Below are positions 9,251 to 64,000 of a stretch of 64,000 bases of DNA, one piece after another. Location: positions 62,001-126,000 of the forward strand of contig NZ_VORS01000007.1 of the NCBI RefSeq assembly GCF_007997075.1, read 5' to 3'. Numbering within the stretch: the first letter of the stretch is position 1; each line of letters begins with the position of its first letter. This DNA is from Polaribacter sp. IC073 (lineage in GTDB: Bacteria; Bacteroidota; Bacteroidia; Flavobacteriales; Flavobacteriaceae). The translations under genes were made by a program, and so were the position numbers. A model generated the notes under the pieces. The model saw only the letters and a program-made list of their open reading frames with translations. It ran no database searches and was not told where the DNA came from.

Positions 9251-10084
9251 TTGCAAAAAATTCATAAAATATTAATTGGTATTGCATTTTCCCCCAACTT
9301 AAAACCTAATTTATTTGAAGCCTTTAGAATTGCCAACTTATTTAATGCAGAATTAATTGGGGTTCATGTTGGTGAAAAAACCACAAAAAAAGAAACTGAT
9401 TTAAATAAAATTATTTCCGAAGCAGACACCTTAAATAAACCGCTAAAAACAATCTGGCAACAAGGAGAGCCTGTTGCTGTAATTTTAGAAACTGCGGCCC
9501 TTCAAAACATAGATTTATTAATTCTAGGTGCCTTACAAAAAGAGAATTTATTAAAATATTATGTAGGTTCTATTGCTAGAAAAATTACAAGAAAAGCTCC
9601 TTGCTCTATTTTATTAATGATTAAACCATCTGTTGAGAAAAAACAATGCAATCACATAGTTGTTAACGGACTAAAAGACGATAGAACAGAAGAAACTATT
9701 AGAACTTCTATCCATTTCTCTAAACATTTACTATGCAAAAAAATGACAATTGTTGAAGAAATTAATCAGAGTGAATTGCAAGTAAGAATTAACGATGATA
9801 AGAGTTTAAGAAAAGCTACTATTGCAAAAGAAAGATTAAAAAACAGAGAAGACCAACGTGTAAATACTATTTTAAAAGATATTAGTTGCGCAGATATTTC
9901 TATAAAAACACAAAGTATTTTTGGTACAAGAGGATATTCTATTGGTCATTATGCAAAAATAAAAAGAGCCGATTTATTAGTAATGAATGCCCCAACCAAG
10001 GTCAATATTTTAGATCGAATTTTTCCGCATGATATTGAATACATTCTTTCTGAATTGCCAACAGATGTTTTAATCGTAAAATAA
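9251..10084 (+). CDS. Tandem universal stress protein (two Usp domains), TTG start
   Basis: Two UspA-like domains lie in tandem: residues about 3-125, beginning KILIGIAFSPNL and ending ARKITRKAPCSILLM, and about 135-277, ending DIEYILSELPTDVLIVK. The G-2x-G-9x-G(S/T) ATP motif is only partly visible (GSIARKI), so nucleotide binding is uncertain. The start must be TTG at 9251: a TAA lies at 9239-9241 in the same frame, and a later start would cut the first beta strand. Its stop touches the ATG of the SulP gene, so the two are translated together. This suggests a regulatory or stress partner of the anion transporter. Confidence 0.85.
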   Translation: MQKIHKILIGIAFSPNLKPNLFEAFRIANLFNAELIGVHVGEKTTKKETDLNKIISEADTLNKPLKTIWQQGEPVAVILETAALQNIDLLILGALQKENLLKYYVGSIARKITRKAPCSILLMIKPSVEKKQCNHIVVNGLKDDRTEETIRTSIHFSKHLLCKKMTIVEEINQSELQVRINDDKSLRKATIAKERLKNREDQRVNTILKDISCADISIKTQSIFGTRGYSIGHYAKIKRADLLVMNAPTKVNILDRIFPHDIEYILSELPTDVLIVK

Positions 10085-47713: not shown

Positions 47714-47748
47714 TTAGTTCGTTTAATTACGAACTAAGTGTATTTTTA
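47714..47748 (+). promoter_or_regulatory. Operator 1 with promoter before the GbsR/MarR gene
   Basis: TTAGTTCGT-N6-ACGAACTAA, perfect 9-base arms (47714-47737), ends 3 bases before TATTTTTA (47741-47748), a likely -7 box. TTCG within the left arm lies 19 bases before that box and can serve as -33. It lies directly before the regulator gene. Confidence 0.75.
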
Positions 47749-47769
47749 CATTCTAAATATATATATTAA

Positions 47770-48261
47770 ATGTCTAAGTCTAAAAATAAAGAGTTATTAG
47801 AACTAATAGAAAAATTAGGATTTGATATAGAAGAGCGTCTACGCCTATCTCCCCTAGCGTCTAGAATTTATGCTTTATTAATTCTATCCTCTTATGATGG
47901 TGTAACTTTCGAAGAAGTAAAAGAAACCATAAAAGCCAGTAAAAGTTCTATATCTGTAAATATAAATGTATTAATACAACTTGGGTATATTACTTTTATA
48001 ACAAAACCTGGAGATAGAAAAAGATATTTTAAGATTGCAAAATACTCTTCGATACTCTCTTTAGAAATCTATCTACAAAGTATAGATAATGAAATGAAAA
48101 TAGTTAATAGAATTAATAAATTCAATCAAGAATACCATCCAGAAAAATATATTAATGAAAAATCTCTCGGTAATATATTTCAAAACTACTTAGAACAAAA
48201 AGAGCAATTAGTTAAAGAAACCATTCTTAAGATGTCTAACTTTAGAAAGTTAGACAAATAA
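47770..48261 (+). CDS. GbsR/MarR-family transcriptional regulator
   Basis: A 163-residue winged-helix protein. The recognition region is VTFEEVKETIKASKSSISVNINVLIQLGYI, and the wing KPGDRKRYFKIA. The layout (IEKLGFDIEERLRLSPLASRIYALLILSS) is that of the GbsR branch of the MarR superfamily, common in Bacteroidota ahead of efflux operons. Its own promoter is covered by a perfect palindrome, and near copies precede the META-domain gene downstream and the TolC/EmrA operon at 61.8 kb. It is the best candidate for the protein that binds them, probably as a repressor. Confidence 0.88.
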   Translation: MSKSKNKELLELIEKLGFDIEERLRLSPLASRIYALLILSSYDGVTFEEVKETIKASKSSISVNINVLIQLGYITFITKPGDRKRYFKIAKYSSILSLEIYLQSIDNEMKIVNRINKFNQEYHPEKYINEKSLGNIFQNYLEQKEQLVKETILKMSNFRKLDK

Positions 48262-48319
48262 TACTTATATTTTATGAGTATATTGATATCTTAGAACTTT
48301 AACAATACTTTAAATATTA

Positions 48320-48354
48320 CTAGTTCGTTATGTTGTGAACTAAACATATATTTG
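48320..48354 (+). promoter_or_regulatory. Operator 2 with promoter before the META-domain gene
   Basis: CTAGTTCGT-N6-GTGAACTAA (48320-48343) ends 3 bases before TATATTTG (48347-48354), a consensus -7 box. It has the same spacing as operators 1 and 3, with a few mismatches in the arms. Confidence 0.72.
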
Positions 48355-48380
48355 CGGTACTATTAATTAAAAAACTATTT

Positions 48381-49193
48381 ATGAAAACTAAAATATTTTT
48401 ATTCTCATTATTAGCAACAACAATAATGAGTTGTAATTTAGGTAAGAAAACAACTACAGAAACAAATAGCAAAAATTCATCAGAAAAAATGTCAATAGAA
48501 AACACAAAATGGATTCTAAATTCATTTGAAGGTGAAAATATACAGGCTAACGGACAAGCTATTTATTTCTCCTTAGATTCAAAAACAAACCGTATTAGTG
48601 GAAACTCGGGGTGTAATACTTTTATGGGGACTTATAAGTTAGAAGAGAATAACAGCATTTCTTTTACTAAACTAGCGTTAACTAGAATGATGTGCCCAGA
48701 TATAGCAATTAACGAATCTAAGGTTATAAGTATTTTTGAATTAGCTGATAATTTTACTATAACAAATGGCGAATTAGCACTAAATAAAGCAAAAATGGCA
48801 CCCTTAGCAACATTTAAAAAAGCAATAACTTCTAACAACCAAATTGTTGAGAAATACTGGAAATTAAAAACATTAGAAGGTAAGGATATTAAAATGGCAG
48901 ACAATCAAGAGCGTGAAATTTTCTTTACTTTAAAGACAGATGAAAATAGAGTAACTGGTTTTGCAGGTTGTAATGCTATTTCTGGAGATTATACATTAGA
49001 AGACGGTAATAGAATCCGTTTTAAAAACATGGCAACCACTTTAATGGCGTGTCCGGATGTTGATGTGAATGAAAGTGACTTTTTAAAGATTTTTGAATTG
49101 ACAGATAATTATACAATTAATAATGATGTTTTATCATTAAACGCAGGTAGAAGAGCTCCTTTAGCTGTTTTTGAAGCTGTTTACATGCAATAA
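48381..49193 (+). CDS. Lipoprotein with two META (HslJ-like) domains
   Basis: Lipobox signal MKTKIFLFSLLATTIMSC. Two META domains of about 110 residues each are visible: one around NTKWILNSFEGENIQANGQ, SGNSGCNTFMGTYKLEE and MMCPD; the second around KYWKLKTLEGKDIKM, TGFAGCNAISGDYTLED and LMACPD. META domains occur in HslJ, a heat-shock-related protein linked to novobiocin resistance in E. coli, but their biochemical role is unclear. The paired cysteines (GCN and MCP/ACP) may form disulfides in the envelope. The gene carries operator 2 and is therefore a likely target of the adjacent regulator. Confidence 0.88.
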   Translation: MKTKIFLFSLLATTIMSCNLGKKTTTETNSKNSSEKMSIENTKWILNSFEGENIQANGQAIYFSLDSKTNRISGNSGCNTFMGTYKLEENNSISFTKLALTRMMCPDIAINESKVISIFELADNFTITNGELALNKAKMAPLATFKKAITSNNQIVEKYWKLKTLEGKDIKMADNQEREIFFTLKTDENRVTGFAGCNAISGDYTLEDGNRIRFKNMATTLMACPDVDVNESDFLKIFELTDNYTINNDVLSLNAGRRAPLAVFEAVYMQ

Positions 49194-49364
49194 TATCAAT
49201 TGAGAAAGAAGAATTAGAACTACTAAACGCATATAGGAAATCATATTATTGGTTGATTGTGGTTGGTTAATACCATTTAAGTGATTTCTGTTTGGTAGTT
49301 CTTTTTAATACAAATTATTTCTAAAATAGGAAAGACTAGTAACTCTCTAGAAAAAAGTCCTCTT

Positions 49365-50372
49365 ATGTTAAAGACAAAAATTTTAATTACTGGTGCTTCT
49401 GGTACCGTTGGCTTTGAAGTCTTAAAACAATTATCTAAAAAAGAATCTTATCATCTTACTATTTTTGATAAGAAAACAAAACTTTCTCTTGAAAAGTTAA
49501 AACCTTTTGAATCTAAAATCGATTTAATTTATGGTGATATTTCAAAGAATATAGACTTAGAACAAATAAAAGGGATAGATGTAGTAATTCATTTGGCTGC
49601 AATTATTCCGCCATTGGCAGACGAATTACAAGAGTTGGCTTATAATGTAAATGTTTTAGGCACTCAAAATTTAATTAGACAATTAGAATTACACTCACCA
49701 AATGCTTTTTTAATGTATAGTTCTAGCATTTCTGTTTACGGAGATCGTATTAAAAAACCTTATATAAAAGTAACAGATAAATTACAACCAAGTGATGGTG
49801 ATGCTTATGGAGAAACAAAAATAACCGCAGAAAAATGTGTTTCAGAAAGTAATTTAGATTGGTCTATCTTTAGACTTGCAGCTATTATGGGCAATCATAA
49901 AATGTCTAAATTAATGTTTCATCAACCTTTAAATACGGCTTTAGAAATAGCAACTCCAAAAGATACTGCAAGAGCATTTGTAAACGGTATTGAAAAACAA
50001 AAACAATTATCTAAACAGGTATTTAATTTGGGTGGTGGTGAATCTTGTAGAATTAGTTACCAACATTTTTTAGAGCGTTCATTTGCAATTTTTGGGTTGG
50101 GAAAATTAAACTTTCCTAAACATAGTTTTGCTGATAAAAATTTTCATTGTGGTTATTATGCTGACGGAGATAACTTAGAAAACATCGTGCATTTTAGACA
50201 AGATAATTTAGAAGATTATTTTAAAATGGAAGCAAAAAAAGTAACATTCATCAAGAAATTTGCTGCATCCGTTCTTAAAAAACCAATTAAATGGTTTCTA
50301 TTAAAAAAATCTGAACCGTATGAAGCCTATAAAAATAAAAATGTGAAACAGATGAAGCATTACTTTAATTAA
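49365..50372 (+). CDS. NAD-dependent epimerase/dehydratase-family protein (extended SDR)
   Basis: The N-terminal Rossmann motif TGASGTVGFEVL, the HLAA segment, and a YGETK motif with an upstream SSSISVYG mark an extended short-chain dehydrogenase/reductase. Such enzymes act on nucleotide sugars or other alcohols; the substrate is not indicated. The C-terminus ends in a basic stretch. It is followed within 12 bases by a DUF2141 gene, and then by a chain of closely spaced genes. Confidence 0.82.
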   Translation: MLKTKILITGASGTVGFEVLKQLSKKESYHLTIFDKKTKLSLEKLKPFESKIDLIYGDISKNIDLEQIKGIDVVIHLAAIIPPLADELQELAYNVNVLGTQNLIRQLELHSPNAFLMYSSSISVYGDRIKKPYIKVTDKLQPSDGDAYGETKITAEKCVSESNLDWSIFRLAAIMGNHKMSKLMFHQPLNTALEIATPKDTARAFVNGIEKQKQLSKQVFNLGGGESCRISYQHFLERSFAIFGLGKLNFPKHSFADKNFHCGYYADGDNLENIVHFRQDNLEDYFKMEAKKVTFIKKFAASVLKKPIKWFLLKKSEPYEAYKNKNVKQMKHYFN

Positions 50373-50384
50373 TAATACAAAATA

Positions 50385-50801
50385 ATGAATAGTATTTTTT
50401 TATACATCGCACTTTTAACAACAATGTTCTCTTCTAATAATCCGCAGTTAACGCTTCATATTTCCAATATTGAAAAGATGGAAGGCAAGATAAGAATTGG
50501 TGTATTTAATAAAAAGGAAGGCTTTTTAAAAGAAGGAAAATCATTTAAAGCTTACTTAATAGAAGTTGATGAAAATTCAGAAACTATCATAATTAGAGAT
50601 TTACCAAAAGGAGCATATGCTATTTCTTTGTATCATGATGTAAATTCCGACAATGTGTGCAATCGTAATTTCTTTGGCATTCCAAAAGAAAAGTATGGTT
50701 TTTCAAATAATATCAAACCAAAATTATCAGCACCAAAATACAAAGACTGTAAATTTTTACTTAAAAGTGATACCATTTTAGATATAACATTATTAAACTA
50801 A
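50385..50801 (+). CDS. DUF2141 exported protein
   Basis: A 138-residue protein with a short N-terminal hydrophobic stretch (MNSIFLYIALLTTMFSS) and the family pattern KIRIGVFNKKEGFL, PKGAYAISLYHDVNSDN, FGIPKEKYGFSNN. DUF2141 proteins are small secreted beta proteins without known function. The gene is closely spaced between the SDR and HdeD genes. Confidence 0.8.
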   Translation: MNSIFLYIALLTTMFSSNNPQLTLHISNIEKMEGKIRIGVFNKKEGFLKEGKSFKAYLIEVDENSETIIIRDLPKGAYAISLYHDVNSDNVCNRNFFGIPKEKYGFSNNIKPKLSAPKYKDCKFLLKSDTILDITLLN

Positions 50802-50824
50802 GATTAACTTAAAACAAATTAATT

Positions 50825-51463
50825 ATGGACTCAGCATTTCTAAAAACAATTAAAAACACTATTAAACATTGGTATATTCCTTTACTAGTGGGAATTTTCT
50901 TTATTATTGTTAGTATTGTTTCTTTTACAGCACCCCTAAATTCTTTGCTTACATTATCTATTTTATTTGCACTATCATTTTTGTTTGGTGGTCTTTCAGA
51001 GATAATTTTTTCTATAGCAAACAAACATCAATTAGAAAATTGGGGGTGGTCTTTGGCATTCGGAATTATTACTTTCTTAGCTGGTTTTTCATTAGTAATT
51101 CATCCCGCTTTATCTATTAGCATTCTAGCTTTTTACATCGGTTTTACAGTATTGCTTAGATCTATAGCTGCTATTAGTTTTGCATTAGACATTAAAAGTT
51201 ACGGTAATAAAAATTATGGTACTTTACTAGTATTCGGTATTTTAGGTGCATTATTTTCATTTATATTAATATGGAATCCTGTGTTTGCAGGCATGAGTGT
51301 TGTTATTCTTATTGCTATTAGTTTTCTATTTGCTGGCTTGTTTAGCATCTTTTTAGCTTTTCAATTAAGAAAATTACACAAATCTTCTAAGACTATTTCT
51401 ACCAAGTTAAAAGCAAGATATGATGATATATTAGAAGAGATTCATAATGAATGGAACGATTGA
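50825..51463 (+). CDS. HdeD/DUF308-family membrane protein
   Basis: A 212-residue protein with six membrane segments and the repeated pattern of DUF308 (WYIPLLVGIFFIIVSIVSFTAPLNSLLTLSILFALSFLFGGLSEI, repeated twice with variation). E. coli HdeD contributes to acid resistance at high cell density; in other bacteria the role is not established. A charged, coiled tail (STKLKARYDDILEEIHNEWND) faces the cytosol. The next gene starts 9 bases later. Confidence 0.85.
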   Translation: MDSAFLKTIKNTIKHWYIPLLVGIFFIIVSIVSFTAPLNSLLTLSILFALSFLFGGLSEIIFSIANKHQLENWGWSLAFGIITFLAGFSLVIHPALSISILAFYIGFTVLLRSIAAISFALDIKSYGNKNYGTLLVFGILGALFSFILIWNPVFAGMSVVILIAISFLFAGLFSIFLAFQLRKLHKSSKTISTKLKARYDDILEEIHNEWND

Positions 51464-51472
51464 TATATAAAA

Positions 51473-51925
51473 ATGAGGAAGGACAAACTTATAAAAGGTG
51501 CCATAACGAATGGGGTTATTAACGGAATTATAAATGTCGGAATTCAATATTTTTTATTAAAAGAGAGTGCTCCTATTGCTATTTCTGTAGACTCAATAAC
51601 AAATACAGCACATACCGTTTTAGGTGAAGCCGTTTTTCTAGCAATTACATTGGCTTTAATAACTACAATAATTGGCTATTTTACTATTAAAGAAGAAAAA
51701 GTACCTTTCTTCCCTACCGCATTTTGGTTGACTATTAAACATGGTTTTTTTACTTTTGGTGTGGTAACTTCTTTGGCTGTTTTATGGCAAAAATATTTTG
51801 GTACTGTTGAAGTTTCATTAATAACAGCTTTATTTATTATAGGAGCAATTGCCAGTATCGTTGCTGGTGTTGTAAATTATTTAACCTTAAAAAGTAGTTT
51901 AAAATTAAGCCATGGCAACAATTAA
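51473..51925 (+). CDS. Hypothetical four-helix membrane protein
   Basis: A 150-residue protein with four predicted membrane segments (about 13-30, 51-71, 88-107 and 112-136) and the motif NTAHTVLGEAVFLAITLALITT. I do not recognise a characterised family. The 3' end overlaps the acetyltransferase gene by 14 bases, so they are translationally coupled. It sits in a row of small membrane and stress genes. Confidence 0.7.
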   Translation: MRKDKLIKGAITNGVINGIINVGIQYFLLKESAPIAISVDSITNTAHTVLGEAVFLAITLALITTIIGYFTIKEEKVPFFPTAFWLTIKHGFFTFGVVTSLAVLWQKYFGTVEVSLITALFIIGAIASIVAGVVNYLTLKSSLKLSHGNN

Positions 51926-52358
51926 TAAAGTAGTTTTAAAAGATTTAAACGATATTTTAAAAATAGAAAAACATGTATTTAAAACAGACAGTTATCCGCC
52001 TTTTGTAATTAGACAATTATTTGACATTTCTGGCAATTATTTTATTGCTGCCAAAGAAGATGGTGAAATTTTAGGATACGCAATTGGCGGTATTAAAACA
52101 GCAGATAATCAAGGTTGGATTTTATCTCTGGGTGTGCATGAAAATGCGAGAGGAAAAGGACTTGGAAAACAATTAACAAAAAAATTAATTGAGATTTTAA
52201 AAGAACAACATACAACACAAATCTCCTTAACCGTATACCCTACAAATGCTTCTGCAATTAAAATATATAAAGACTTGGGCTTTGTAGGCAATGAAATTTT
52301 AGACAATTATTTCTTGGATCATGAAAAACGAATTGTAATGACATTAAATACTAATTAA
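51912..52358 (+). CDS. GNAT-family N-acetyltransferase
   Basis: A 148-residue GCN5-type acetyltransferase. The acetyl-CoA site is seen as LSLGVHENARGKGLGKQLTKKLI (R/Q-x-x-G-x-G/A motif), followed by VYPTNASAIKIYKDLGF, which is characteristic of RimI-like enzymes. The substrate may be a protein N-terminus or a small molecule. It overlaps the membrane protein gene by 14 bases, and a lipoprotein gene follows 2 bases later. Confidence 0.9.
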   Translation: MATINKVVLKDLNDILKIEKHVFKTDSYPPFVIRQLFDISGNYFIAAKEDGEILGYAIGGIKTADNQGWILSLGVHENARGKGLGKQLTKKLIEILKEQHTTQISLTVYPTNASAIKIYKDLGFVGNEILDNYFLDHEKRIVMTLNTN

Positions 52359-52360
52359 TC

Positions 52361-52927
52361 ATGAAAAAACATATAATACTATTGCTTCTAATTTTTATAG
52401 GTTTATTGATAAATGCTTGTAAAAAAAATAAAGCAGATACTAGAGAAGAATTTACGACTCCTTTTTCAAAACAAAATACGGATGATGAAATGTCCAAAAA
52501 AATTAAAACTTTCTTAACTACCAAATTTTTAACAGCAGCAGATGTAAGGGCTATTGATAATAATCAAAGAAAATTTCAATTCTATAAAGTAGATTTGAAT
52601 AATGATGGAAAAGAAGAAATTTTTATAAAATTGATGACCTCTTATTTTTGTGGATCTGACGGATGCACACTTTTACTTTTAGATAATAATCTTAATCTAA
52701 TCAATAGATTTAGTCCTACTCAAACATTTTATATAGATGAAAACATTGAGAATGATTGGAATATTTTAATAACAAAAACCGAAGGGAATTGGAGAAAACT
52801 AGTCTATAAAAGTGGTGCTTACCCATCAAACCCGACTTTGGTAGAGAAAATAAATGAAAAGCAGCGTAAAAACGGACAAATAATATTTGATAAAAAGAAT
52901 AACAAAGCAAAAACATACACCTTTTAA
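52361..52927 (+). CDS. Hypothetical lipoprotein
   Basis: Lipobox signal MKKHIILLLLIFIGLLINAC. The middle contains DLNNDGKEEIFIKL, a calcium-loop-like or FG-GAP-like motif, and FCGSDGCTLLLLD, with a pair of cysteines. The remainder shows no recognisable domain. It is the fourth or fifth member of a closely spaced group beginning near 49365. The 3' end lies 13 bases before the amidohydrolase start. Confidence 0.7.
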   Translation: MKKHIILLLLIFIGLLINACKKNKADTREEFTTPFSKQNTDDEMSKKIKTFLTTKFLTAADVRAIDNNQRKFQFYKVDLNNDGKEEIFIKLMTSYFCGSDGCTLLLLDNNLNLINRFSPTQTFYIDENIENDWNILITKTEGNWRKLVYKSGAYPSNPTLVEKINEKQRKNGQIIFDKKNNKAKTYTF

Positions 52928-52940
52928 AAACCAACCAAAT

Positions 52941-54656
52941 ATGAAAAGAATACTAACCTTGTTATTCGTTACATCTATTTTACTTGGCTGTAAAAACACA
53001 GACAAATCGGTTAACCAAACAGGACAACTGTTTTTTAATGGAGACATTATTACCATGGAATCTGAAAATGCAATTTATGCAGAAGCTGTAGTAGAAAATA
53101 ATGGTAAAATTATTTTTGTTGGAAGTAAAAAAGAGGCTGAATCTCAATTTTCAAAAGCTAAAAAAATTGATTTACAAGGAAAAACATTGTTGCCAGGGTT
53201 TATAGATACTCACAGTCATTTTGGGATGGTTTCTAATACGATGGGACAAGTAGATTTAAATCCAGAACCTGTTGGAACTGTAAAAAATATTGATGATATT
53301 TTAACGCTTTTAAAAAAATGTAAAGAAGAGAATAACATTGCAGATGGCGAATGGATTTTTGGTTGGGGGTATGATGACGGTCAATTAGTCGAAAACAGTC
53401 ATCCAACGAGAAAAGATATTGATAAAGTTTTACCAAACAATCCAGTGTATTTACAGCATACAAGTGGTCATATGGGCGTTGCAAATACTTTAGGGTTAGC
53501 AGAATTAAAAGTTTCTTCGGAAAGTAAAAACCCTGATGGAGGAACCATCGTTCGTTTTAAAAATACGCAAGATCCAACAGGTTTGGTTCAGGAAACAGCA
53601 ATGTACCCTTTTGTACGTTTAATGATGGAGAAATTAGACTCTAAACAAGCAAAATTCTTTGATACCACACAAGATTACTACGCTTCAAACGGCATTACAA
53701 CTGCCCAAGATGGAATGACAAGTAGAGAATCAATCAAGTTTTTTCAAACGCAAGCAGATGCAGGTAAATTTAAAATTGATTTAGTTGCATTGGCAGGATA
53801 TTCTGAATTAGAAAACAATTTAAAAGATACTTCACTTGTTTTTAAAACCTATAAAAACGGATTCAAAGTTCAAGGAACAAAAATTGTTGCAGATGGTTCT
53901 CCGCAGGGGAAAACTGCTTTTTTTAGCAAACCTTTTTTAACAGAAGTTCCTGGTTGTCATCACGATTGTAGAGGGCTGCCGAGTCTAACGCAAGAAGCCA
54001 TTAATAATTTATTTGTAATAGGGTATGAAAAAGACAATCAACTTTTTATTCACTGTAATGGCGATGCAACGGTAGATATGATTATTGAAGCGCATGAAAA
54101 TGCCTGTAAAATTTTAGATCAACCTTTAAATAAAGACAGAAGAACCATTATTATTCATGCTCAATTTGCAAGACCAGAACAATTAGAAACATTTAAAAAA
54201 TATAATATGGAGCCTTCATTTTTTACAAATCACGCTTTCTTTTGGGGAGATATTCATGTAAAAAATTTAGGGAAAGAAAGAGCTTATTTTTTAAGTCCGA
54301 TGGCAAGTGCTATCAAATTAGGTTTAAAACCAACCAATCATTCAGATGCTACAGTAACACCAATCGATCCAATTTTTACAATTTGGACAGCCGTAAATCG
54401 TGTTTCTAGATCAGGCGAAATTATTGGTGAAGCAGAAAGAATATCCCCTTATCAAGCAATTCAAGCCATTACAACAAATGCCGCTTATGAGTTATTTGAC
54501 GAAGATTTAAAAGGAACTTTATCCGAAGGAAAATTAGCAGATTTTGTTATTTTAGATAAAAATCCGTTAAAAGTAGCAGCAATGGATATTAAAAACATCA
54601 AAGTTGTAGAAACGATAAAAGAAGGTAAAACGGTTTATAAAAAAGTGAATTTTTAG
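52941..54656 (+). CDS. Amidohydrolase-family lipoprotein (YtcJ-like)
   Basis: The start at 52941 gives the lipoprotein signal MKRILTLLFVTSILLGC; a start 18 codons upstream would overlap the previous gene and hide the signal. The amidohydrolase metal motif DTHSH is followed by HTSGHMG, IHCNGDATVDM, IIHAQF and TNHSDATVTP, matching the YtcJ-like branch of the superfamily. The C-terminal EGKLADFVILDKNPL is typical. It would hydrolyse an amide or related bond in the periplasm; substrate unknown. It ends the run of closely spaced genes. Confidence 0.85.
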   Translation: MKRILTLLFVTSILLGCKNTDKSVNQTGQLFFNGDIITMESENAIYAEAVVENNGKIIFVGSKKEAESQFSKAKKIDLQGKTLLPGFIDTHSHFGMVSNTMGQVDLNPEPVGTVKNIDDILTLLKKCKEENNIADGEWIFGWGYDDGQLVENSHPTRKDIDKVLPNNPVYLQHTSGHMGVANTLGLAELKVSSESKNPDGGTIVRFKNTQDPTGLVQETAMYPFVRLMMEKLDSKQAKFFDTTQDYYASNGITTAQDGMTSRESIKFFQTQADAGKFKIDLVALAGYSELENNLKDTSLVFKTYKNGFKVQGTKIVADGSPQGKTAFFSKPFLTEVPGCHHDCRGLPSLTQEAINNLFVIGYEKDNQLFIHCNGDATVDMIIEAHENACKILDQPLNKDRRTIIIHAQFARPEQLETFKKYNMEPSFFTNHAFFWGDIHVKNLGKERAYFLSPMASAIKLGLKPTNHSDATVTPIDPIFTIWTAVNRVSRSGEIIGEAERISPYQAIQAITTNAAYELFDEDLKGTLSEGKLADFVILDKNPLKVAAMDIKNIKVVETIKEGKTVYKKVNF

Positions 54657-54795
54657 ACGTAAGATTAACTGACGTAAACTTAAAGACGCTGTTTAATTCA
54701 ACCATAAAGGTTCATTATTTTCAATAAAAACTTAAAGATTTATGTAAAACAGTCATAAATCATCACATAAAATCATCATTTAAAAAAAAAACAAT

Positions 54796-55575
54796 ATGGA
54801 TACATCAAAATTTTTCGATTTAAAAGGAAAAACAGCTATTATTACAGGTGGCGCAAACGGAATAGGAAAAGCAAGTTGCGAAATACTAGCCGCTTATGGA
54901 GCTAAAGTAGTTGTTTCAGATTATAATTTAGAAGCAGCAGAAAAAACAGCCAAAGAAATTAATGATAAGGGAGGAAAAGCTATTGCAATAGATTGTAATG
55001 TTCTAGAAGATGATGCTTTGGTAAATTTAGTAGACCAAACCGTTAAAGAATTCGGTAGTATAGAAATTTTGGTAAACAATGTTGGTGGCGGTGGCGCTGG
55101 CAAAGAAAGTCCTTATGATATTGAAGTAGCACAATTTAAAAAGGTTTTTGATATGAATGTTTTTAGTATGTGGAGATTATGCCAGTTGGTTGCACCACAC
55201 ATGAAGAAAGCAGGTTATGGTAGTATTATTAACATGTCTTCAATGGCATCTATAAATAAAAGTCCTGCAATTAGTGCGTATGCATCTTCAAAAGCTGCCA
55301 TTAATCATATGACCCGAAATTTGGCGTACGATTTTGGACCTGATAATATTAGAATGAATGCAATAGGGCCTGGTGCAACAAAAACAGCTGCTTTAAAAAC
55401 TGTTTTAACTCCAGATTTAGAAAAAGCAATGTTAAAACATACACCAATTAAAAGATTAGGTGAAGCAGAAGATATTGCAGGAGCAGTATTGTATTTTGCA
55501 GCACCAATTTCTAGTTGGACGAGTGGGCAAGTTATCTTTATTAATGGAGGTGGCGAGCAAACTTTAGATATGTAG
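54796..55575 (+). CDS. Short-chain dehydrogenase, 7-alpha-hydroxysteroid-dehydrogenase-like
   Basis: A classical SDR of 259 residues. The cofactor motif is TGGANGIGKAS, the catalytic residues are in NMSSMAS and YASSKAA (Ser, Tyr, Lys), and NNVGGGG replaces the usual NNAG. The segments SYxSMAS, HTPIKRLGEAEDI and WTSGQVIFINGGGEQTL resemble E. coli HdhA, which oxidises bile acids. In a free-living marine bacterium a sterol, bile-acid-like or other alcohol is more likely than gut bile acid. A strong hairpin follows before the EamA gene. Confidence 0.87.
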   Translation: MDTSKFFDLKGKTAIITGGANGIGKASCEILAAYGAKVVVSDYNLEAAEKTAKEINDKGGKAIAIDCNVLEDDALVNLVDQTVKEFGSIEILVNNVGGGGAGKESPYDIEVAQFKKVFDMNVFSMWRLCQLVAPHMKKAGYGSIINMSSMASINKSPAISAYASSKAAINHMTRNLAYDFGPDNIRMNAIGPGATKTAALKTVLTPDLEKAMLKHTPIKRLGEAEDIAGAVLYFAAPISSWTSGQVIFINGGGEQTLDM

Positions 55576-55685
55576 AAAAACGGCGTTTATGAATTCAATT
55601 TTTCTTATATTTGAAAGAATTAAATGTTTGCTTTAAAACTAAAAGATCTTTAGTTTTAAAGCAGGAAACACTAGAATATTTTACA

Positions 55686-55713
55686 AAAGCAGCTATTTTT
55701 TAATAGCTGCTTT
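55686..55713 (+). terminator. Hairpin after the SDR gene
   Basis: Perfect 12-base arms AAAGCAGCTATT and AATAGCTGCTTT with a TTTT loop. It lies only 14 bases before the next start codon, so it may also act as an attenuator. Confidence 0.72.
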
Positions 55714-55727
55714 ACTACTTTTAAATT

Positions 55728-56630
55728 ATGATGAAATTTTTAAATAACAAATGGTTTTTATTATTTGTAATCGCATTAACTTGGGGAAGCTCATTTATGT
55801 TGATAAAAAAATCTTTAGTGGCTTTTACACCATATGAAATAGGTGCAATACGCGTTGTAGGATCCGGGCTTTTATTCGCTTTTATTGGTATTCCTGCTTT
55901 ATTTAAAATGTCTAGAAAAACAATTATTTGGGTTACAATTGCTGGTTTTTTCGGTAATTTTTTACCCATGTTTTTATTTCCAATAGCACAAACAGAGGTA
56001 AGTAGTTCTTTGGCTGGTATTTTAGATTCTTTAGTTCCTGTTTTTGTAATGGTCTTTGGTTTTTTACTCTTTGGAATTAAAAGTAAGAAATCACAAGTAA
56101 TTGGTGCAATTATTGGTTTTTTAGGAGCTACAAGTTTAATTTATTTTTCTGAAGGAAATACAGAAGATTCTAAATTTTGGTATACAATGCTAGTTGTTTT
56201 AGCGGGTGCCTCTTACGGTGTAAATGCTGTAGTTATAAAAGAACGAATTCCGAATTTAAATGCCATAAAATTAACAGCTGCAGTGTATTCTATTTGGGCA
56301 GTTCCTGCCTTGGTTATCTTATATTTTACAGGGCTTGTTCAAAATTTTGAGATGAAACCAGCATACACAGAGCCTATCGGTTATTTAGTGTTTTTAACAT
56401 TTTTTGGTACTGCCATCGCGATGTTATTATATTTTAAATTAATACAAGATACCTCTGCCGTTTTTGCAAGTACTGCAAGTTACTTATTGCCAATTGTTGC
56501 TGTTATTTGGGGTGTTTTAGATGGTGAGATATTTTCATTTTGGTATGTTTTTGGTGGCGCTTTAATTTTAATCGGAATTTATTTAATCCGTGAGAAAAAG
56601 AAAAATCCGAAATTAGTTCCTCGTGGATAA
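55728..56630 (+). CDS. EamA/DMT-family transporter
   Basis: A 300-residue protein with ten membrane helices in two EamA repeats (first repeat FLLFVIALTWGSSFMLIKKSL, second from WYTMLVVLAGASYGVNAVVIKE). Two ATGs occur at 55728 and 55731; either is possible. DMT transporters export or import small metabolites; substrate not predictable. Next on the same strand, after about 290 bases, is the Tmm gene. A functional link (methylated-amine or product transport) is possible but unsupported. Confidence 0.88.
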   Translation: MMKFLNNKWFLLFVIALTWGSSFMLIKKSLVAFTPYEIGAIRVVGSGLLFAFIGIPALFKMSRKTIIWVTIAGFFGNFLPMFLFPIAQTEVSSSLAGILDSLVPVFVMVFGFLLFGIKSKKSQVIGAIIGFLGATSLIYFSEGNTEDSKFWYTMLVVLAGASYGVNAVVIKERIPNLNAIKLTAAVYSIWAVPALVILYFTGLVQNFEMKPAYTEPIGYLVFLTFFGTAIAMLLYFKLIQDTSAVFASTASYLLPIVAVIWGVLDGEIFSFWYVFGGALILIGIYLIREKKKNPKLVPRG

Positions 56631-56641
56631 GTTATACCAGT

Positions 56642-56676
56642 ATACAGCTGTTTTACAATCAATAAAACAGCTGTAT
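56642..56676. repeat. Perfect inverted repeat after the EamA gene
   Basis: ATACAGCTGTTTT and AAAACAGCTGTAT form 13-base perfect arms around ACAATCAAT. No T tail follows the right arm, so a terminator call is not clear; it could be an operator or an RNA hairpin. The rest of the 290-base gap to Tmm shows nothing I recognise. Confidence 0.6.
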
Positions 56677-56893
56677 CTATCGTATTATTCGATGTTATTA
56701 TTAGTCAAATCCCTATAAAAACAGTATCTTTGTAACTTCTGGAAAAACAACCTTCATTCCATAGAAAAAGCATTTTTAATACTGCTTAAATTCAATCTAA
56801 ATGGGTTTTGTGTTATTTCCTATGCTACAAAAACGTAGCTACATACTAAAATTATAAATGAACAATTGTTTGTGCTATTTTCTTTAAAATTAG

Positions 56894-58315
<1,422 letters not shown>

Positions 58316-58345
58316 ATTTTATTCTATTGATAAATCTTTACATTT

Positions 58346-58384
58346 AAACCCCACAGATTTTAAAACCTGTGAGGTTTTTTTTTA
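58346..58384 (+). terminator. Terminator after tmm
   Basis: AAACCCCACAG and CCTGTGAGGTTT arms around ATTTTAAAA, ending in a long T run. It shares its core with the intra-operon hairpin at 26266-26300. Confidence 0.85.
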
Positions 58385-58500
58385 TCAAATTTTATAGCTA
58401 AATTGATGTTTCTTACAGGAATAAAAGCACTCTATTTTAAACCTATATAGTAAGTAACAAGTTTGGTTGGTTATTCTTTAAAGATTTAAAATTATTCATT

Positions 58501-60111
58501 TTGAAAAAAATACGTTTATTTATTCTCACTTTTTTATTAGTAACATCTTGCATCACAAGTAAAAAAAATAAAGAACAAACAACCGCTACAGAAAAGCCCA
58601 ATATCGTACTTATTATGTGTGATGATATGGGGTTTTCTGATTTAGGGAGTTATGGTGGCGAAATAAAAACACCAAATATTGATGTTTTGGCAACTCAAGG
58701 CATTCGTTTCAGTCAGTTTAAAAATACTGGGCGTTGTTGCCCAAGTAGAGCCGCTTTGCTTACTGGTCGAAATCAGTTTGCTGCAGAAATGGGATGGATG
58801 ACTGCTGTAGATGAACATCGGGAAGCATATCGAGGTCAACTTTCTGCTACGATTCCTACAATTGCAGAAATCTTAAAAGACAACAATTATTACACCTATT
58901 TATCGGGAAAATGGCATTTAACACTTGATGATTCGTATAAGTTAGGTGCTGTTAAACCCAATGGGAGTTGGCCTTTTGAACGTGGTTTTAACGAATCATA
59001 CGCAGGATTACCTGGTGGTGGAAGTTACTATAAAGTAAATGGTTTGGTAAAAAATGAAACTGTTATTAAAGATTTTCCAGCCAATTATTATTACACAGAT
59101 GCCATTACAGAAAATGCGGTTGGTTTTATTAAAAAACACAATACAGAAAAACCAATGTTTTTGTATTTGGCGCATTATGCACCTCACAGACCATTGGAGG
59201 CTCCTAAAGATAGAATTGATAAATGTCGTGAAAGATACCAAGTTGGTTATGACGTTTTGAGAGCGCAACGTTATGAGAATTTAAAGAAAAAAGGATTGAT
59301 CTCTACACTAGAAGGATTGCCAATTCATGAACGAGAATACCATAATAAACGTCCTTCTTGGGTTTCTTTACCTAAAAAGAAGAAAGAAGAATGGATTACT
59401 GAAATGGCAACCTATGCTGCTATGATAGAAATTATGGATGATGGTATTGGAGAAGTAATTAAAGCAACCAAAGAAAAAGGAATTTATGAAAACACCGTGT
59501 TTCTTTTTTTAAGTGATAATGGCGCTACTAAAGAAGGTGGTGATATTTCACAACTTACGGCAGATTTGAGTAATACACCCTATCGAGATTATAAAATATC
59601 TACGTATATGGGAGGCACTAGTTCTCCTTTAATTATACATTATCCTGAGAAATTTGCTAAATATAAAGGTGAAATAAGAACAGATTTAACACATATTACA
59701 GATATTCTACCGACTTGTTTAGACATTGCAGGAATTGAATACCCAACATCCTTTCATCAAAAAAAAATACCTCAATTTGAAGGGAAAAGCTTAATTACCG
59801 TATTAGAAAAAAACAAACTAGAGAAACGTGATCTTTTTTTTCAGCATGAACAAAGTTGTGCTATTATATCTGATAATTGGAAACTTGTTCGTGGAAATAT
59901 TTCCGAACCTTGGGAGTTGATCAACTTGACAAAAGACTCTTTTGAACAATACAATGTTGCTGCAAATTTTCCTAAAAAAGTCTTAGAACTCGAAAAAAAG
60001 TGGAATATTTGGGCTAAAGAAAACAACGTATTGCCCATAGAAAAAAGAGCTTGGTCTGCTAGAATAAAACATTATAACGGATTAAATACTGACAAAAGTA
60101 AGATTAATTAA
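58501..60111 (+). CDS. Type I (formylglycine) sulfatase, lipoprotein, TTG start
   Basis: The formylglycine motif is C79-C-P-S-R followed by AALLTG, in the family form CxPSRxxLLTG. The N-terminal metal site NIVLIMCDDMGFSDLG, SGKWHL and the later FLFLSDNGATKE complete the sulfatase core. The only start giving the lipoprotein signal (MKKIRLFILTFLLVTSC) is TTG at 58501; no ATG precedes it in frame after the nearest stops. The enzyme would remove sulfate from a sulfated sugar or other ester at the cell surface. No other sulfated-polysaccharide gene is nearby. A maturase (anaerobic type or FGE) must be encoded elsewhere. Confidence 0.9.
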   Translation: MKKIRLFILTFLLVTSCITSKKNKEQTTATEKPNIVLIMCDDMGFSDLGSYGGEIKTPNIDVLATQGIRFSQFKNTGRCCPSRAALLTGRNQFAAEMGWMTAVDEHREAYRGQLSATIPTIAEILKDNNYYTYLSGKWHLTLDDSYKLGAVKPNGSWPFERGFNESYAGLPGGGSYYKVNGLVKNETVIKDFPANYYYTDAITENAVGFIKKHNTEKPMFLYLAHYAPHRPLEAPKDRIDKCRERYQVGYDVLRAQRYENLKKKGLISTLEGLPIHEREYHNKRPSWVSLPKKKKEEWITEMATYAAMIEIMDDGIGEVIKATKEKGIYENTVFLFLSDNGATKEGGDISQLTADLSNTPYRDYKISTYMGGTSSPLIIHYPEKFAKYKGEIRTDLTHITDILPTCLDIAGIEYPTSFHQKKIPQFEGKSLITVLEKNKLEKRDLFFQHEQSCAIISDNWKLVRGNISEPWELINLTKDSFEQYNVAANFPKKVLELEKKWNIWAKENNVLPIEKRAWSARIKHYNGLNTDKSKIN

Positions 60112-60251
60112 CCCTTATAATTCTTTTATAAAAATTAATAATTTTACTAACCTATGCCCTACTTTTAATTTGTTTATTATTTTAAAACTATTATTCTTTA
60201 CTTTCGATAAGACTGCTGTGTAACACCCCTGTTTTGTTATAAAACCTAATT

Positions 60252-61706
60252 ATGAATTGGATTATTGCTTTACAAATCACCTATATACTCTTAATAATTT
60301 TAGTTATTGTAAGAGTATTATACGATACCAGAAGTAGTACAAAAGCTTTGGCGTACATACTATTTATTGTGTTTGTTCCTATTATTGGTGTCTTATTTTA
60401 TTTTTATTTCGGAATTAATTATCGCAAAAGAAAACTGTATTCTAAAAAAATTGTACAAGATGCACCACTTCGAAGACTCATAAAATCAGAAATAAAAACG
60501 TATTCAGATGCTATTTCAAAATCCAATTTGGTTGATCATAAATATCAAAATTTAATTGAATTTCTTCGGAATTCAGGTAATAGCCCGCTCACCACAAATG
60601 CTGAAGTAAAATTATTAATAAATGGTGAAGAAAAATTTCCAGAATTATTAAAAGCCTTAAAAAAAGCAACTTCACATATTCATCTAGAATATTATATCTA
60701 CGAAAATGATATTACAGGAAATGAAGTTGCAGCGATCTTAATAAGAAAAGCAAAAGAAGGCGTTGAAGTCCGCTTTATGTATGATGATTTTGGCAGTCAT
60801 TCATTAGGAAAAAAATTCATTAAAAAATTAAATGCTGCTGGTGTTTTAACTGCACCTTTCTACAAAATAAGATGGTATGCTTTTGCGAATAGAATTAACT
60901 ACAGAAACCATAGAAAAATTGTAATTATTGATGGCGATACATGTTTTATTGGTGGCATAAATATGAGTGACACTTATAGAAATGACTTAAATAAAAAAGA
61001 GCATTTGTATTGGAGAGATACACATTTAATGATCAAAGGGCAAGCCTCTTCTTACTTGCAATACTTGTTTTTATGTGACTGGAATTTTTGTAGCAATTCA
61101 CCTTTAGAATATTCCGAAATATATTTCCCTATCAATTCAAAACAAGCAACCACACAAAATGAGGTTGTGCAAATTGCAGCTTCTGGGCCAGATAGCTCGC
61201 ATCCTGTTATTTTCTATTCGTTATTAGAAGCAATTAGCGCTGCCAAAAAAAGCATTTATATTACGAGTCCGTATTTTATTCCTGGAGAAAGTTTAATGGA
61301 CGCATTAATTATTGCCATTCAAAGTGGATTGGATGTGAAAATAATTATTCCTGGTATTTCCGACTCTAAAATGGTAGACGCAGCTGCGAGTGCTTATTAC
61401 ACCGAGCTATTAGAATGTGGTGCAAAAATATACAAGTATAATAAAGGGTTTGTACATGCAAAAACAATGGTTGTAGATGATGATTTGGCCATTATTGGTT
61501 CTGCAAATATGGATTTTAGAAGTTTCGATTTAAACTTTGAAGTAAATGCGATGCTTTACAGCAAAAGAATTGCAGAACAATTAAAAGAAGCCTTTAACAA
61601 CGATTTAAAAGTATCTCACCAAATTAATGCCATAACTTGGTTAAATAGACCAAAATACATCCATTTATGGGAAAAATTAGTGCGTTTATTATCTCCTTTT
61701 TTATAA
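60252..61706 (+). CDS. cls: Cardiolipin synthase
   Basis: Two HKD (phospholipase D) motifs are present: HRKIVIIDGD, starting near residue 220, and HAKTMVVDDD, starting near 402, each followed by GG(I)NM or GSANMD. The N-terminus has two membrane helices (MNWIIALQITYILLIILVIV and LAYILFIVFVPIIGVLFYFYFG). Cls condenses two phosphatidylglycerols to cardiolipin at the inner membrane. The length (484) fits the ClsA type. The gene stands alone. Confidence 0.93.
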   Translation: MNWIIALQITYILLIILVIVRVLYDTRSSTKALAYILFIVFVPIIGVLFYFYFGINYRKRKLYSKKIVQDAPLRRLIKSEIKTYSDAISKSNLVDHKYQNLIEFLRNSGNSPLTTNAEVKLLINGEEKFPELLKALKKATSHIHLEYYIYENDITGNEVAAILIRKAKEGVEVRFMYDDFGSHSLGKKFIKKLNAAGVLTAPFYKIRWYAFANRINYRNHRKIVIIDGDTCFIGGINMSDTYRNDLNKKEHLYWRDTHLMIKGQASSYLQYLFLCDWNFCSNSPLEYSEIYFPINSKQATTQNEVVQIAASGPDSSHPVIFYSLLEAISAAKKSIYITSPYFIPGESLMDALIIAIQSGLDVKIIIPGISDSKMVDAAASAYYTELLECGAKIYKYNKGFVHAKTMVVDDDLAIIGSANMDFRSFDLNFEVNAMLYSKRIAEQLKEAFNNDLKVSHQINAITWLNRPKYIHLWEKLVRLLSPFL

Positions 61707-61749
61707 ACAATCATAAGTATTAATAAAATTAACGTAAATTTATTAATAT

Positions 61750-61784
61750 TTGGTTCGTTATGTTACGAACTAATTGTATTTTTA
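61750..61784 (+). promoter_or_regulatory. Operator 3 with promoter before the TolC/EmrA efflux operon
   Basis: TTGGTTCGT-N6-ACGAACTAA (61750-61773) ends 3 bases before TATTTTTA (61777-61784), the same spacing as operators 1 and 2 at 47.7 and 48.3 kb. Confidence 0.75.
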
Positions 61785-61852: not shown

Positions 61853-63175
61853 ATGAATATTTTAAACAAAACGGGTATTGTACTTTTAGCTCTATTGGGT
61901 TTAAGCAGTCAGATTGTATCTTCACAAGAGATGCCAAAACGCAGCATGACCATACAAGAGCTTGCTAAAAAGGTACAAGATAATAATATTCAATTAAAAA
62001 TAGCAACAATATCTGTTGCTATCGCAGAAGCAAAAATTGAAGCAATAAAAACCAATAGACTACCAGATATAAGTGCAGACGTAAGTGCTTTTTACTTGAG
62101 TGATGTTCGTATTTATGATACTAGTTTTAAAAAATTACAAACGGTAAATTTGCCGAATTTTGGAAATCAATTCAATCTAAATGCAAATCAATTAATTTTT
62201 GCTGGCGGCAAAATAAATAAATCAATTGCACTTTCTGAACTTAGTAAAACACTCAGCGAAAACCAATTAGACAACACTGTACAAGCAGTTAAATTAAGTG
62301 CCACAGAGTTATATATAAATCTTTACAACCTTCAAAATCAAAAGAAAATTTTAGAAAGTAATAAAGATTTAGCTATCGAACGTACAAAAAACACAAGACT
62401 GTTTTACAAACAAAATATGATTACTAAAAATGAGGTTTTACGTGCCGAAGTTTTAGAAAGACAATTACAACAAAGTATTTTACAAGTTGAAAATGCGATT
62501 TTAATTACAAATAAAAATTTAACCCTTTTTGCCGGTATTGAAGAGACCGTTTTAATCATTCCTGATGTAGAGAATATTAACCATAGTATACGCAAGCAAG
62601 ATGAAAACTTCTATCGCGAAATTGCGTACGAAAAAAACCCACAATTAAGTGCAAGCGATACACAAATAGCTATTGCAAACAAAAATTTAGAACTTACAAA
62701 ATCAGATAGAGCACCAATATTAGCTGCCTTTGCTGGTTATAATGCAAATAGACCACAGACTTCTGGCACACCTGCAGACTTATATTCGAATACCTACCAA
62801 GCAGGGTTGAGCCTTTCGTATAATATTGAATCCATTTTTAAAAATCGAAAAAAAGAGGCAGTTGATAAAATTTTAATAGACCAAGTAACTTTAGCCAAAG
62901 AAGCTGTTAGACAACAAGTTGAAGCAGACGTAAATGCTGCTTATAAAAATTACCATCAAGCAGTTGAGCAGCGTGAAGTAAGTGTTAAAAACAAAAATGC
63001 TGCAGATGAAAATTATCGTATTAACGAGTTAAAGTACAAGAACCAGTTGGTTACGTACATAGAAATTATTGATGCAGCAAATATTAAATTACAAGCAGAA
63101 TTGCAAATGCTCGATGATCAAACAAATATTATTTTAAATTACGTGAAACTTTTGCGCATAACAGGACAACTATAA
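61853..63175 (+). CDS. TolC-family outer-membrane efflux protein
   Basis: Signal peptide MNILNKTGIVLLALLGLSSQIVSSQ. The protein is mostly helical, with the TolC repeat: MTIQELAKKVQDNNIQLKIATISVAIAEAKIEAIKTNRLPDI near the N-terminus, and the second copy (REIAYEKNPQLSASDTQIAIANKNLELTKSDRAPIL) near residue 255. A periplasmic hairpin region (ILESNKDLAIERTKNTRLFYKQNMITKNEVLRAEV) follows the first. TolC proteins form the outer-membrane exit duct. An EmrA-like adaptor follows 24 bases after the stop, and operator 3 sits upstream. Confidence 0.9.
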   Translation: MNILNKTGIVLLALLGLSSQIVSSQEMPKRSMTIQELAKKVQDNNIQLKIATISVAIAEAKIEAIKTNRLPDISADVSAFYLSDVRIYDTSFKKLQTVNLPNFGNQFNLNANQLIFAGGKINKSIALSELSKTLSENQLDNTVQAVKLSATELYINLYNLQNQKKILESNKDLAIERTKNTRLFYKQNMITKNEVLRAEVLERQLQQSILQVENAILITNKNLTLFAGIEETVLIIPDVENINHSIRKQDENFYREIAYEKNPQLSASDTQIAIANKNLELTKSDRAPILAAFAGYNANRPQTSGTPADLYSNTYQAGLSLSYNIESIFKNRKKEAVDKILIDQVTLAKEAVRQQVEADVNAAYKNYHQAVEQREVSVKNKNAADENYRINELKYKNQLVTYIEIIDAANIKLQAELQMLDDQTNIILNYVKLLRITGQL

Positions 63176-63199: not shown

Positions 63200-64000
63200 A
63201 TGGCAGCACAGGCACCAGAATCAACTTCAACAACAAAAGTTAAGAAAAAAAACAAACTGTATTTAGCTCTTTTAAATGCCTTTGTTTTTATCATAACACT
63301 ACTCGTTATTTGGTATGTAATTAAAAATTACTTACATATTAATGACGATACTTACGTAAGTGATGCACAAGTAAAAGCATACATAAGTCCCATAAACTCA
63401 AGAGTACCTGGGTATATTAGTGAAATTCATTTTGAAGAACACCAAAAGGTAAAAAAGGGAGATACACTTCTTATACTTGACAAAACAGAATTTAAAATTG
63501 CAATTTCACAAGCTGAAGCAGGCTTAAGTCAGGCTAAAGCAGGAAAAGCAGCAACTATGTCTTCTGTTGTTAGGGTTGGTAGTGGAGAAAGTACCGTGCA
63601 GGCAAATATGTACGGAGTTAAAGCTCAATTAAACAACGCTAAAGCAGATTTAGCGCGTTACAAGAATTTATTAGAAAATGATGCCGTTACGCTACAACAA
63701 TATCAACAAATTGAAACGCAAGTAAAAACTTTACAAGCACAATATAATGCATTAAGTAAACAGAAAAACACCGCTAAGTTATCTACAAATGAAACTGAGT
63801 CTCAATTAGCCATAAGTGATGCACAAATTAAGGCTGCAGAAGCTGGTTTAGAAAGAGCTCAGTTAAACCTTAAATACACTGCAATTACCGCTCCGGAAGA
63901 TGGTGTAATGGGAAGAAGAACAATTACCGAAGGGCAATACATTCAACCAGGACAACAAATTTCTGCATTGGTACAAGAAAACACAAAGTGGGTAGAAGCT
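63200..64000 (+). CDS. HlyD/EmrA-type membrane-fusion protein (partial, cut by window end)
   Basis: Starts at ATG 63200 and is open to the end of the window (267 codons). One N-terminal membrane helix (YLALLNAFVFIITLLVIWYVI) is followed by the first half of a lipoyl-like domain (AQVKAYISPINSRVPGYISEIHFEEHQKVKKGDTLLILD), a coiled hairpin, and the second half (LKYTAITAPEDGVMGRRTITEGQYIQPGQQI). This is the adaptor of an EmrAB-TolC-like tripartite efflux pump. An EmrB-type transporter is expected beyond the window. The shared promoter and operator are those before the TolC gene. Confidence 0.92.
   Translation, partial: MAAQAPESTSTTKVKKKNKLYLALLNAFVFIITLLVIWYVIKNYLHINDDTYVSDAQVKAYISPINSRVPGYISEIHFEEHQKVKKGDTLLILDKTEFKIAISQAEAGLSQAKAGKAATMSSVVRVGSGESTVQANMYGVKAQLNNAKADLARYKNLLENDAVTLQQYQQIETQVKTLQAQYNALSKQKNTAKLSTNETESQLAISDAQIKAAEAGLERAQLNLKYTAITAPEDGVMGRRTITEGQYIQPGQQISALVQENTKWVEA

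Follow-up and report, generated by a model that had tools for sequence, protein, structure and literature searches.

In a 64,000-nucleotide stretch of the genome of Polaribacter sp. IC073 (contig NZ_VORS01000007.1, positions 62,001 to 126,000 of the forward strand; hereafter the window), three copies of a 24-base palindrome, O1, O2 and O3, are very probably the operators of a GbsR-type regulator of the MarR superfamily, encoded at 47770, which on the sequence evidence would control by repression its own gene, the gene of a neighbouring lipoprotein with two META domains and a TolC-EmrA-MFS (major facilitator superfamily) efflux operon. The sites, their spacing, their conservation, the phylogeny of the regulators and the recurrence of the targets are established by computation; binding, repression, an inducer and a signal common to the three units are what we infer from them. 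A first-pass annotation had proposed the same regulon, and this reading is supported by our comparisons, but it is one branch of a rule that holds across the family, by which such a regulator normally stands at the head of a resistance-nodulation-division (RND) efflux operon.

Probable operators, promoters and regulator in the window

That three near-identical palindromes stand at 47714, 48320 and 61750 was confirmed by sequence reading and a pattern search (Table 1), as was the observation that exactly 3 bases separate each from a -7-like box downstream, with 19 bases between the TTCG of the left arm and that box at all three sites. The boxes agree with the sigma-A -7 element TAnnTTTG in 6 of 6 letters at O2 and in 5 of 6 at O1 and O3, and O3 has the same inner arm letters and the same box spacing as O1. 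With up to 3 mismatches to TTAGTTCGT-N6-ACGAACTAA allowed, O1, O2 and O3 are the sole matches in the 64 kb, where the mean expected by chance for the 24-mer is 0.02 and none of 100 dinucleotide shuffles reached three, so the threefold recurrence is indeed hard to explain by chance. The description of the promoters as unlinked has to be corrected: O1 and O2 are neighbours 606 bases apart, and O3 lies 14 kb away on the same strand. A position weight matrix (PWM) of 40 columns, trained on 54 sites from other genomes only, found nothing else above 6 bits in the window and the 13 kb beyond it, barring the reverse strands of O1-O3 (at most 21.3 bits), and the peak in the reversed window was 8.0 bits.

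A genome scan for stray matches had been set beforehand as a check on the regulon, and such matches proved few, low-scoring and located in open reading frames (ORFs). Across the 3.76 Mb of the genome, the pattern with up to 3 mismatches occurs at four places (three in a reversed-pattern control), the fourth being inside an ORF; with up to 2 mismatches there are two places against none in the control. A looser core, RGTTCGN8CGAACY with at most one mismatch, gives seven places (control, four), namely O1-O3 and four within ORFs, one of which (C49) lies at the end of an ORF, right before the next. These four score 12.5 bits or less, against 40.0 to 42.6 for O1-O3.

The sigma-A box TAnnTTTG has been mapped at -12 to -5 in Flavobacterium psychrophilum (PMC9723704), so the operators in the window would span about -39 to -16 and cover the -33 element and the spacer. 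The two GTTCG half-sites, whose centres are 13 bp apart, are most likely contacted by a homodimer of the regulator. Once bound, the dimer would keep RNA polymerase off, which would amount to steric repression of the regulator's own gene, the META lipoprotein gene and the TolC-EmrA-MFS operon. Release would come from an inducer, probably some toxic small molecule exported by the pump. Steric repression seems the most economical reading because the operators cover the -33 region and OpcR of Bacillus subtilis is described as repressing by a steric block of the -35 region, GbsR acting there as a roadblock (PMC7396694). A palindrome lying over and between the -33 and -7 elements, with the TTCG of its left arm as a poor -33 element, would also suit an activator placed as MerR is, a possibility we consider decidedly unlikely: the regulator is MarR/GbsR-like by profile and by fold, and GbsR, OpcR, OpuAR and CydE are described as repressors (PMC6207618; PMC7396694). 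On sequence, the operators overlap the predicted promoters of the regulator's own gene and of the pump, as expected of an autoregulated efflux repressor.

The assignment of the regulator to the GbsR type rests on several comparisons. The Pfam models HTH_34 and MarR_2 match it at 35.9 and 28.9 bits, both over the cut-off of 27, and its closest solved structures by sequence are 4nb5 and 1ku9 (E 2.6e-6 for 1ku9), the latter being MJ223, the template used for GbsR models. A fold search with the predicted monomer (mean predicted local distance difference test score 94.2) gave 4nb5, 5jbr and 1ku9 as the best matches, with MepR, MarR and an EmrR-family protein also among the matches. In the model the recognition helix spans residues 58-71 and the wing strands 74-78 and 85-89, and there are two long helices at the C-terminus, so that the monomer combines a winged helix-turn-helix head with long C-terminal helices as in MJ223. 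It is not an equivalog of CudC (NCBIfam NF047500, 27.6 bits against a cut-off of 218). The META protein likewise falls below the NCBIfam equivalog cut-off for HslJ (68.2 of 168 bits), with the META domain itself recognised.

Table 1. Features of the putative regulon (positions in the window unless marked otherwise)
Feature	Position	Strand	Description
O1, operator	47714..47737	+	perfect palindrome TTAGTTCGT-N6-ACGAACTAA, 0 mismatches; upstream of regulator gene; PWM 40.0 bits
-33-like TTCG in left arm of O1	47718..47721	+	19 bases before -7 box; putative role
-7-like box of O1, TATTTTTA	47741..47748	+	3 bases past O1
GbsR-type regulator, MarR superfamily	47770..48261	+	163 aa; Pfam HTH_34, MarR_2; 4nb5, 1ku9/MJ223
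O2, operator	48320..48343	+	3 mismatches; upstream of META lipoprotein gene; PWM 42.5 bits
-7 box of O2, TATATTTG	48347..48354	+	3 bases past O2
Two-META-domain protein	48381..49193	+	270 aa; PF03724 159.5 bits, 2 stretches; lipobox-like N-terminus (by eye)
O3, operator	61750..61773	+	1 mismatch; upstream of efflux operon; PWM 42.6 bits, top of three
-7-like box of O3, TATTTTTA	61777..61784	+	3 bases past O3
TolC-type outer membrane efflux protein	61853..63175	+	440 aa; PF02321 167.3 bits
EmrA/HlyD-type adaptor	63200..64000, on to 64279 past window end	+	359 aa; PF16576, PF13437
MFS-like transporter	outside window, L035:6283-7896		537 aa; after EmrA; MFS_1 21.6 bits, below cut-off 33.4

Conservation across Flavobacteriaceae

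In most of the family's genomes examined that have a relative of the regulator, the operator goes with it. Among 199 family genomes, nearly all of different genera, 93 had a regulator match, and 70 regulator loci from 67 genomes, one genome per genus, were examined (left out were matches below about 53 bits, G115, where the contig ends, the genome of IC073 itself and the second copies in G087 and G039). Within 220 bases upstream or the first 30 bases of the gene, the operator core is exact at 51 loci, has one mismatch at 9 and two at 8, which makes 68 of 70 with no more than two, against none of 70 in the reversed upstream sequences. The other check set beforehand, that relatives keeping the regulator should keep the site, was in this way mostly borne out. 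HlyD-type and AcrB-type RND genes lie behind the regulator at 64 of the 70 loci, which makes the head of an RND efflux operon the ordinary place for a member of this group.

A second sample (1.428 Mb) consists of 76 named loci, the best among 299 relatives; it holds 63 exact cores and 38 with one mismatch, and 20 Markov-1 simulations gave no exact core. Here a site with no more than one mismatch lies within 250 bases of 65 of 86 testable regulator genes and of 15 of 19 META genes. Of 99 regulators, 89 have a site when two mismatches are allowed. Eight exact sites stand before neither a regulator, a META nor a TolC gene, and each of these is no further than about 3 kb from a regulator gene. Sixteen whole genomes reached through the named loci were also searched for the operator followed at the fixed distance by the box, 2 mismatches at most being allowed, which yielded 46 matches (one being the reverse reading of another), 19 of them perfect. 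Of the matches away from known regulator loci, eight were read. Six of these run into a GbsR-type regulator and an HlyD gene, one into a two-META protein gene of Winogradskyella epiphytica 13 kb from an RND regulator, and one into an outer-membrane-barrel-like protein (by eye) of Nonlabens antarcticus. Five further matches away from regulator loci, four of them with 2 mismatches, are outside the eight.

The promoter geometry is close to constant. The spacing was counted at 93 of 101 sites, omitting one stray in L149 and seven between the regulator and the HlyD gene (L177, L181, L187, L192, L194, L202 and L203), and a box that agrees with TAnnTTTG in 5 or all 6 letters begins exactly 3 bases past the 24-mer at 80 sites, 4 bases past it at 7, 5 bases at 2 and at some other distance at the last 4. 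For the 68 sites of the genus sample the box is at 3 bases in 49 and at 4 bases in 11. The 3-base spacing is not universal, since 5 bases are common in the RND-type paralogues of Polaribacter.

That the palindromes are chance or structural repeats with no regulatory meaning is so improbable as to be negligible. The four places against three for the reversed control, at 3 mismatches in the genome of IC073, would fit it, but the shuffles, the cores of the named loci, the fixed spacing, the 16-genome search and the 68 of 70 genus loci all speak against it, and it was rejected on the shuffle test, the Markov-1 simulations and the conservation across genera.

The seven omitted loci, from the genera Kriegella, Maribacter, Arenibacter, Zobellia and Euzebyella, each carry a second palindrome between the regulator stop and the HlyD gene, near 10476-10499, which suggests an operator inside the RND operon. 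Outside Flavobacteriaceae, a family of the same order (f2) keeps the RND link at 6 of 6 loci, with 0 to 2 mismatches to the operator core. GbsR-type genes of other families of the phylum (L311, L320, L325-L329) have TTTRGTTC-N10-GAACYAAA palindromes with other inner letters, and the palindromes outside the family have no evident box at 3 bases.

Clade, proposed targets and competing explanations

The regulator belongs to a branch in which no RND operon comes directly after the regulator gene. In a tree of 99 regulators (quick method, midpoint root; dropped beforehand were the 96-aa fragment L103, the truncated L148_2, and L102 and L104, which duplicate L132 and L140), it falls in a clade of 28 members with support 99, of which 20 are META-linked, 2 MFS-linked and 6 other. 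None of these orphan regulators has RND genes within 2.5 kb behind it; several are followed, at a greater distance, by an RND operon that belongs to a second regulator. Only two changes on the tree are required for the RND label, against a mean of 27.2 when shuffled, and midpoint rooting places the orphan clade within the RND regulators. Half-sites of the GTTCGT or GTTCGA type predominate in its sister group of 17 (13 RND-linked); elsewhere the left half-site is mostly GTTCGG or the right one CCGAAC. The regulator is kin to the repressors that head RND operons across the family, and its own clade applies the operator system to other targets. In Polaribacter sp. IC066 an orphan regulator, a META gene, nhaA and a sister RND regulator stand in a row, with operators before both regulators and before the META gene.

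The genome of IC073 itself holds a paralogue, 35% identical to the regulator, which heads an RND operon at G000:C19:414639 and has a related operator. Belonging to the same protein group, it is the foremost candidate if a protein other than the regulator at 47770 binds O1-O3, and in three Polaribacter genomes (G231, G234 and G235) strong operators stand before single-META genes with the paralogue type as the only match listed. We nevertheless consider such binding very unlikely, as the paralogue's operator in the same genome is altered symmetrically in both arms (TTCTG..CAGAA) and O1 lies directly before the regulator gene, an arrangement kept in most close orthologues.

The altered operator of the RND-operon paralogue occurs both in IC073 and in G250 (L117:9530; L330 = G250:C1:2494500-2498500), and both genomes hold a regulator of the window's type, broken in G250. 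Among 27 other Polaribacter loci none has the double change, two have half of it and one (L065) is without a recognisable site. The change may insulate the two regulators from one another, but it is probably a single event in close relatives. The single-META genes with strong operators are those of loci L210, L211 and L212 (in G235, G234 and G231), where a paralogue of RND type is the only match listed.

Operators before META genes recur with the 3-base spacing in Ulvibacter, Maribacter, Nonlabens, Psychroflexus, Bizionia and Gelidibacter, near RND regulators in Oceanihabitans and Winogradskyella, and with a 4-base spacing in four Arenibacter. Within Polaribacter, 6 of 15 META genes have a strong operator (G000, G250, G342, G235, G234 and G231), and in the family sample the META genes of the window and of G080 have one. 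The MFS pump recurs as well: Aequorivita todarodis has a homologous TolC-EmrA-MFS operon (77 to 86% identity) behind an operator at L136:14300, and Flavobacterium antarcticum has one (74 to 84% identity) with an operator at L139:13474 before a universal stress protein gene. The proposed regulon of regulator, META protein and pump gains comparative support from this recurrence of both targets in other genera; against it, some relatives lack one or more of the sites.

In both relatives the pump operon is followed by a second GbsR-type regulator gene of its own, from the sister clade (L136:16853-19021; L139:16866-19015), and no regulator gene was seen in the stretch after the operon in IC073. The genes cls and nhaA, which flank the pump in IC073, adjoin without the operon in G250, so that the efflux operon looks like an insertion that arrived with its operator. 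The TolC gene is uncommon in the genus (2 of 146 Polaribacter genomes at E 1e-40), and a 42%-identical TolC in G235 has no operator. An operon acquired with its operator and without its regulator could leave O3 as a relic, outside the present control of the regulator in the window. This is unlikely: O3 shares the inner arm letters of O1 and has the highest score of the three, where a relic free of selection should decay. Control of O3 by the regulator at 47770 remains our preferred reading.

Several results weigh against the regulon as drawn here. The pump's operator may have evolved for the pump's own second regulator. Ten of the 99 regulators in the tree have no site at up to 2 mismatches; these include the regulator of Mesonia profundi and, in five Arenibacter, those on the META side. 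The reversed control of the 16-genome search is not negligible (15 against 46). Nine of the 15 Polaribacter META genes reach no more than 16.0 bits, and of the 11 META genes in the family sample eight have no operator and one (G093) a partial one; among the regulator matches of the genomes with operator-poor META genes there is no orphan-clade regulator, and several have one of RND type. In G250 the regulator gene is broken by several stops, with the operators before it and before the META gene intact (L103, G250:C1:1078000-1097900, 9640-10245). The covariation between protein and operator adds no proof either. Of the 163 columns, residue 63 in the recognition helix best tracks the letter that follows GTTCG in the operator: it is T in 54 of the 60 GC-type rows, and all 29 AT-type rows have V, S or N. 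On the tree this comes down in essence to a single shift and is without significance: five independent pairs on starred branches gave one difference the same way, none the opposite way and four without a difference. As proof it was rejected.

Relation to known systems and further genes

With the GbsR-type regulators (GbsR, OpcR, OpuAR, CydE; MJ223/1ku9) the regulator shares the winged helix of the MarR superfamily, the long C-terminal helices and the presumed repression from an operator. It differs in its targets, which are efflux and envelope genes where those regulators control osmoprotectant genes or cydAB, and in a palindrome built on GTTCG. The osmostress subgroup of the type is described as having an aromatic cage for inducers of the choline/betaine kind (PMC6207618).

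Repressors of efflux of the MarR type (EmrR/MprA, MexR, MepR) are a known kind, and the regulator resembles them as a presumed autoregulated repressor of a multidrug-type pump. It stands apart from them in belonging to the GbsR-type branch, in not lying beside an RND operon and in having a META lipoprotein gene as its neighbouring target. With the HslJ/META proteins the protein in the window shares the PF03724 domain, being distinguished by two META domains and a lipobox-like start. In Acinetobacter, HslJ is described as a periplasmic protein with links to oxidative stress and to properties of the cell surface (PMC11724541). The pump is like the tripartite EmrAB-TolC type in having TolC-type, HlyD/EmrA-type and MFS-like genes in a row, and unlike it in that the MFS_1 match falls short of its cut-off (Table 1), whereas the OEP (outer membrane efflux protein) and HlyD models are matched.

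In the open-licence literature searched, no description of this operator or regulon was found. A paper on a Riemerella RND pump was considered as prior art and set aside, the regulator it describes being of the TetR type (PMC5727081). A 2018 survey of GbsR-type regulators describes the gene neighbourhoods in Bacteroidetes as giving no consistent picture (PMC6207618). Such a picture can be drawn for the present group, with a searchable operator, a nearly fixed promoter geometry and RND efflux as the usual target, to which META lipoproteins and an MFS pump are added as further targets; it opens a direct route to finding and testing how efflux is intrinsically controlled across a large set of environmental bacteria, and places two-META-domain lipoproteins in a regulatory context for the first time.

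On a wider scale, there is an about even chance that the sites are part of an undescribed, Bacteroidota-wide code for efflux and envelope stress. GbsR-type repressors would read TTTRGTTC-N10-GAACYAAA, 3 bases before the -7 box in Flavobacteriaceae, and duplication of an RND-pump repressor would have given rise to orphan regulators which, with a change of the inner half-site letters from GTTCGG to GTTCGT, captured META lipoproteins and an MFS pump. If this is true, META proteins would be dedicated efflux partners in Bacteroidota, and the operator would explain what GbsR-type regulators do in Bacteroidetes, so far an open question.

The other first genes behind operators in relatives code for a DUF308 protein, a small protein followed by an amidohydrolase, a PepSY-like protein, a universal stress protein and a Cons_hypoth698 protein. 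Homologues of the first two units lie between the META gene and the pump in the window (DUF308, 50825-51463; amidohydrolase unit, 51473-54656), where the PWM finds no operator of their own. The DUF308 proteins of the relatives are 65 and 67% identical to that in the window, and the small protein and the amidohydrolase are 70 and 72% identical to those at 51473-51925 and 52887-54656; the relatives in which these homologues come first behind an operator are Flavobacterium antarcticum, Mesonia profundi and Aequorivita todarodis. Past the MFS-like transporter, genes for an NhaA antiporter, a ZIP-like protein and an MscS-type channel follow.

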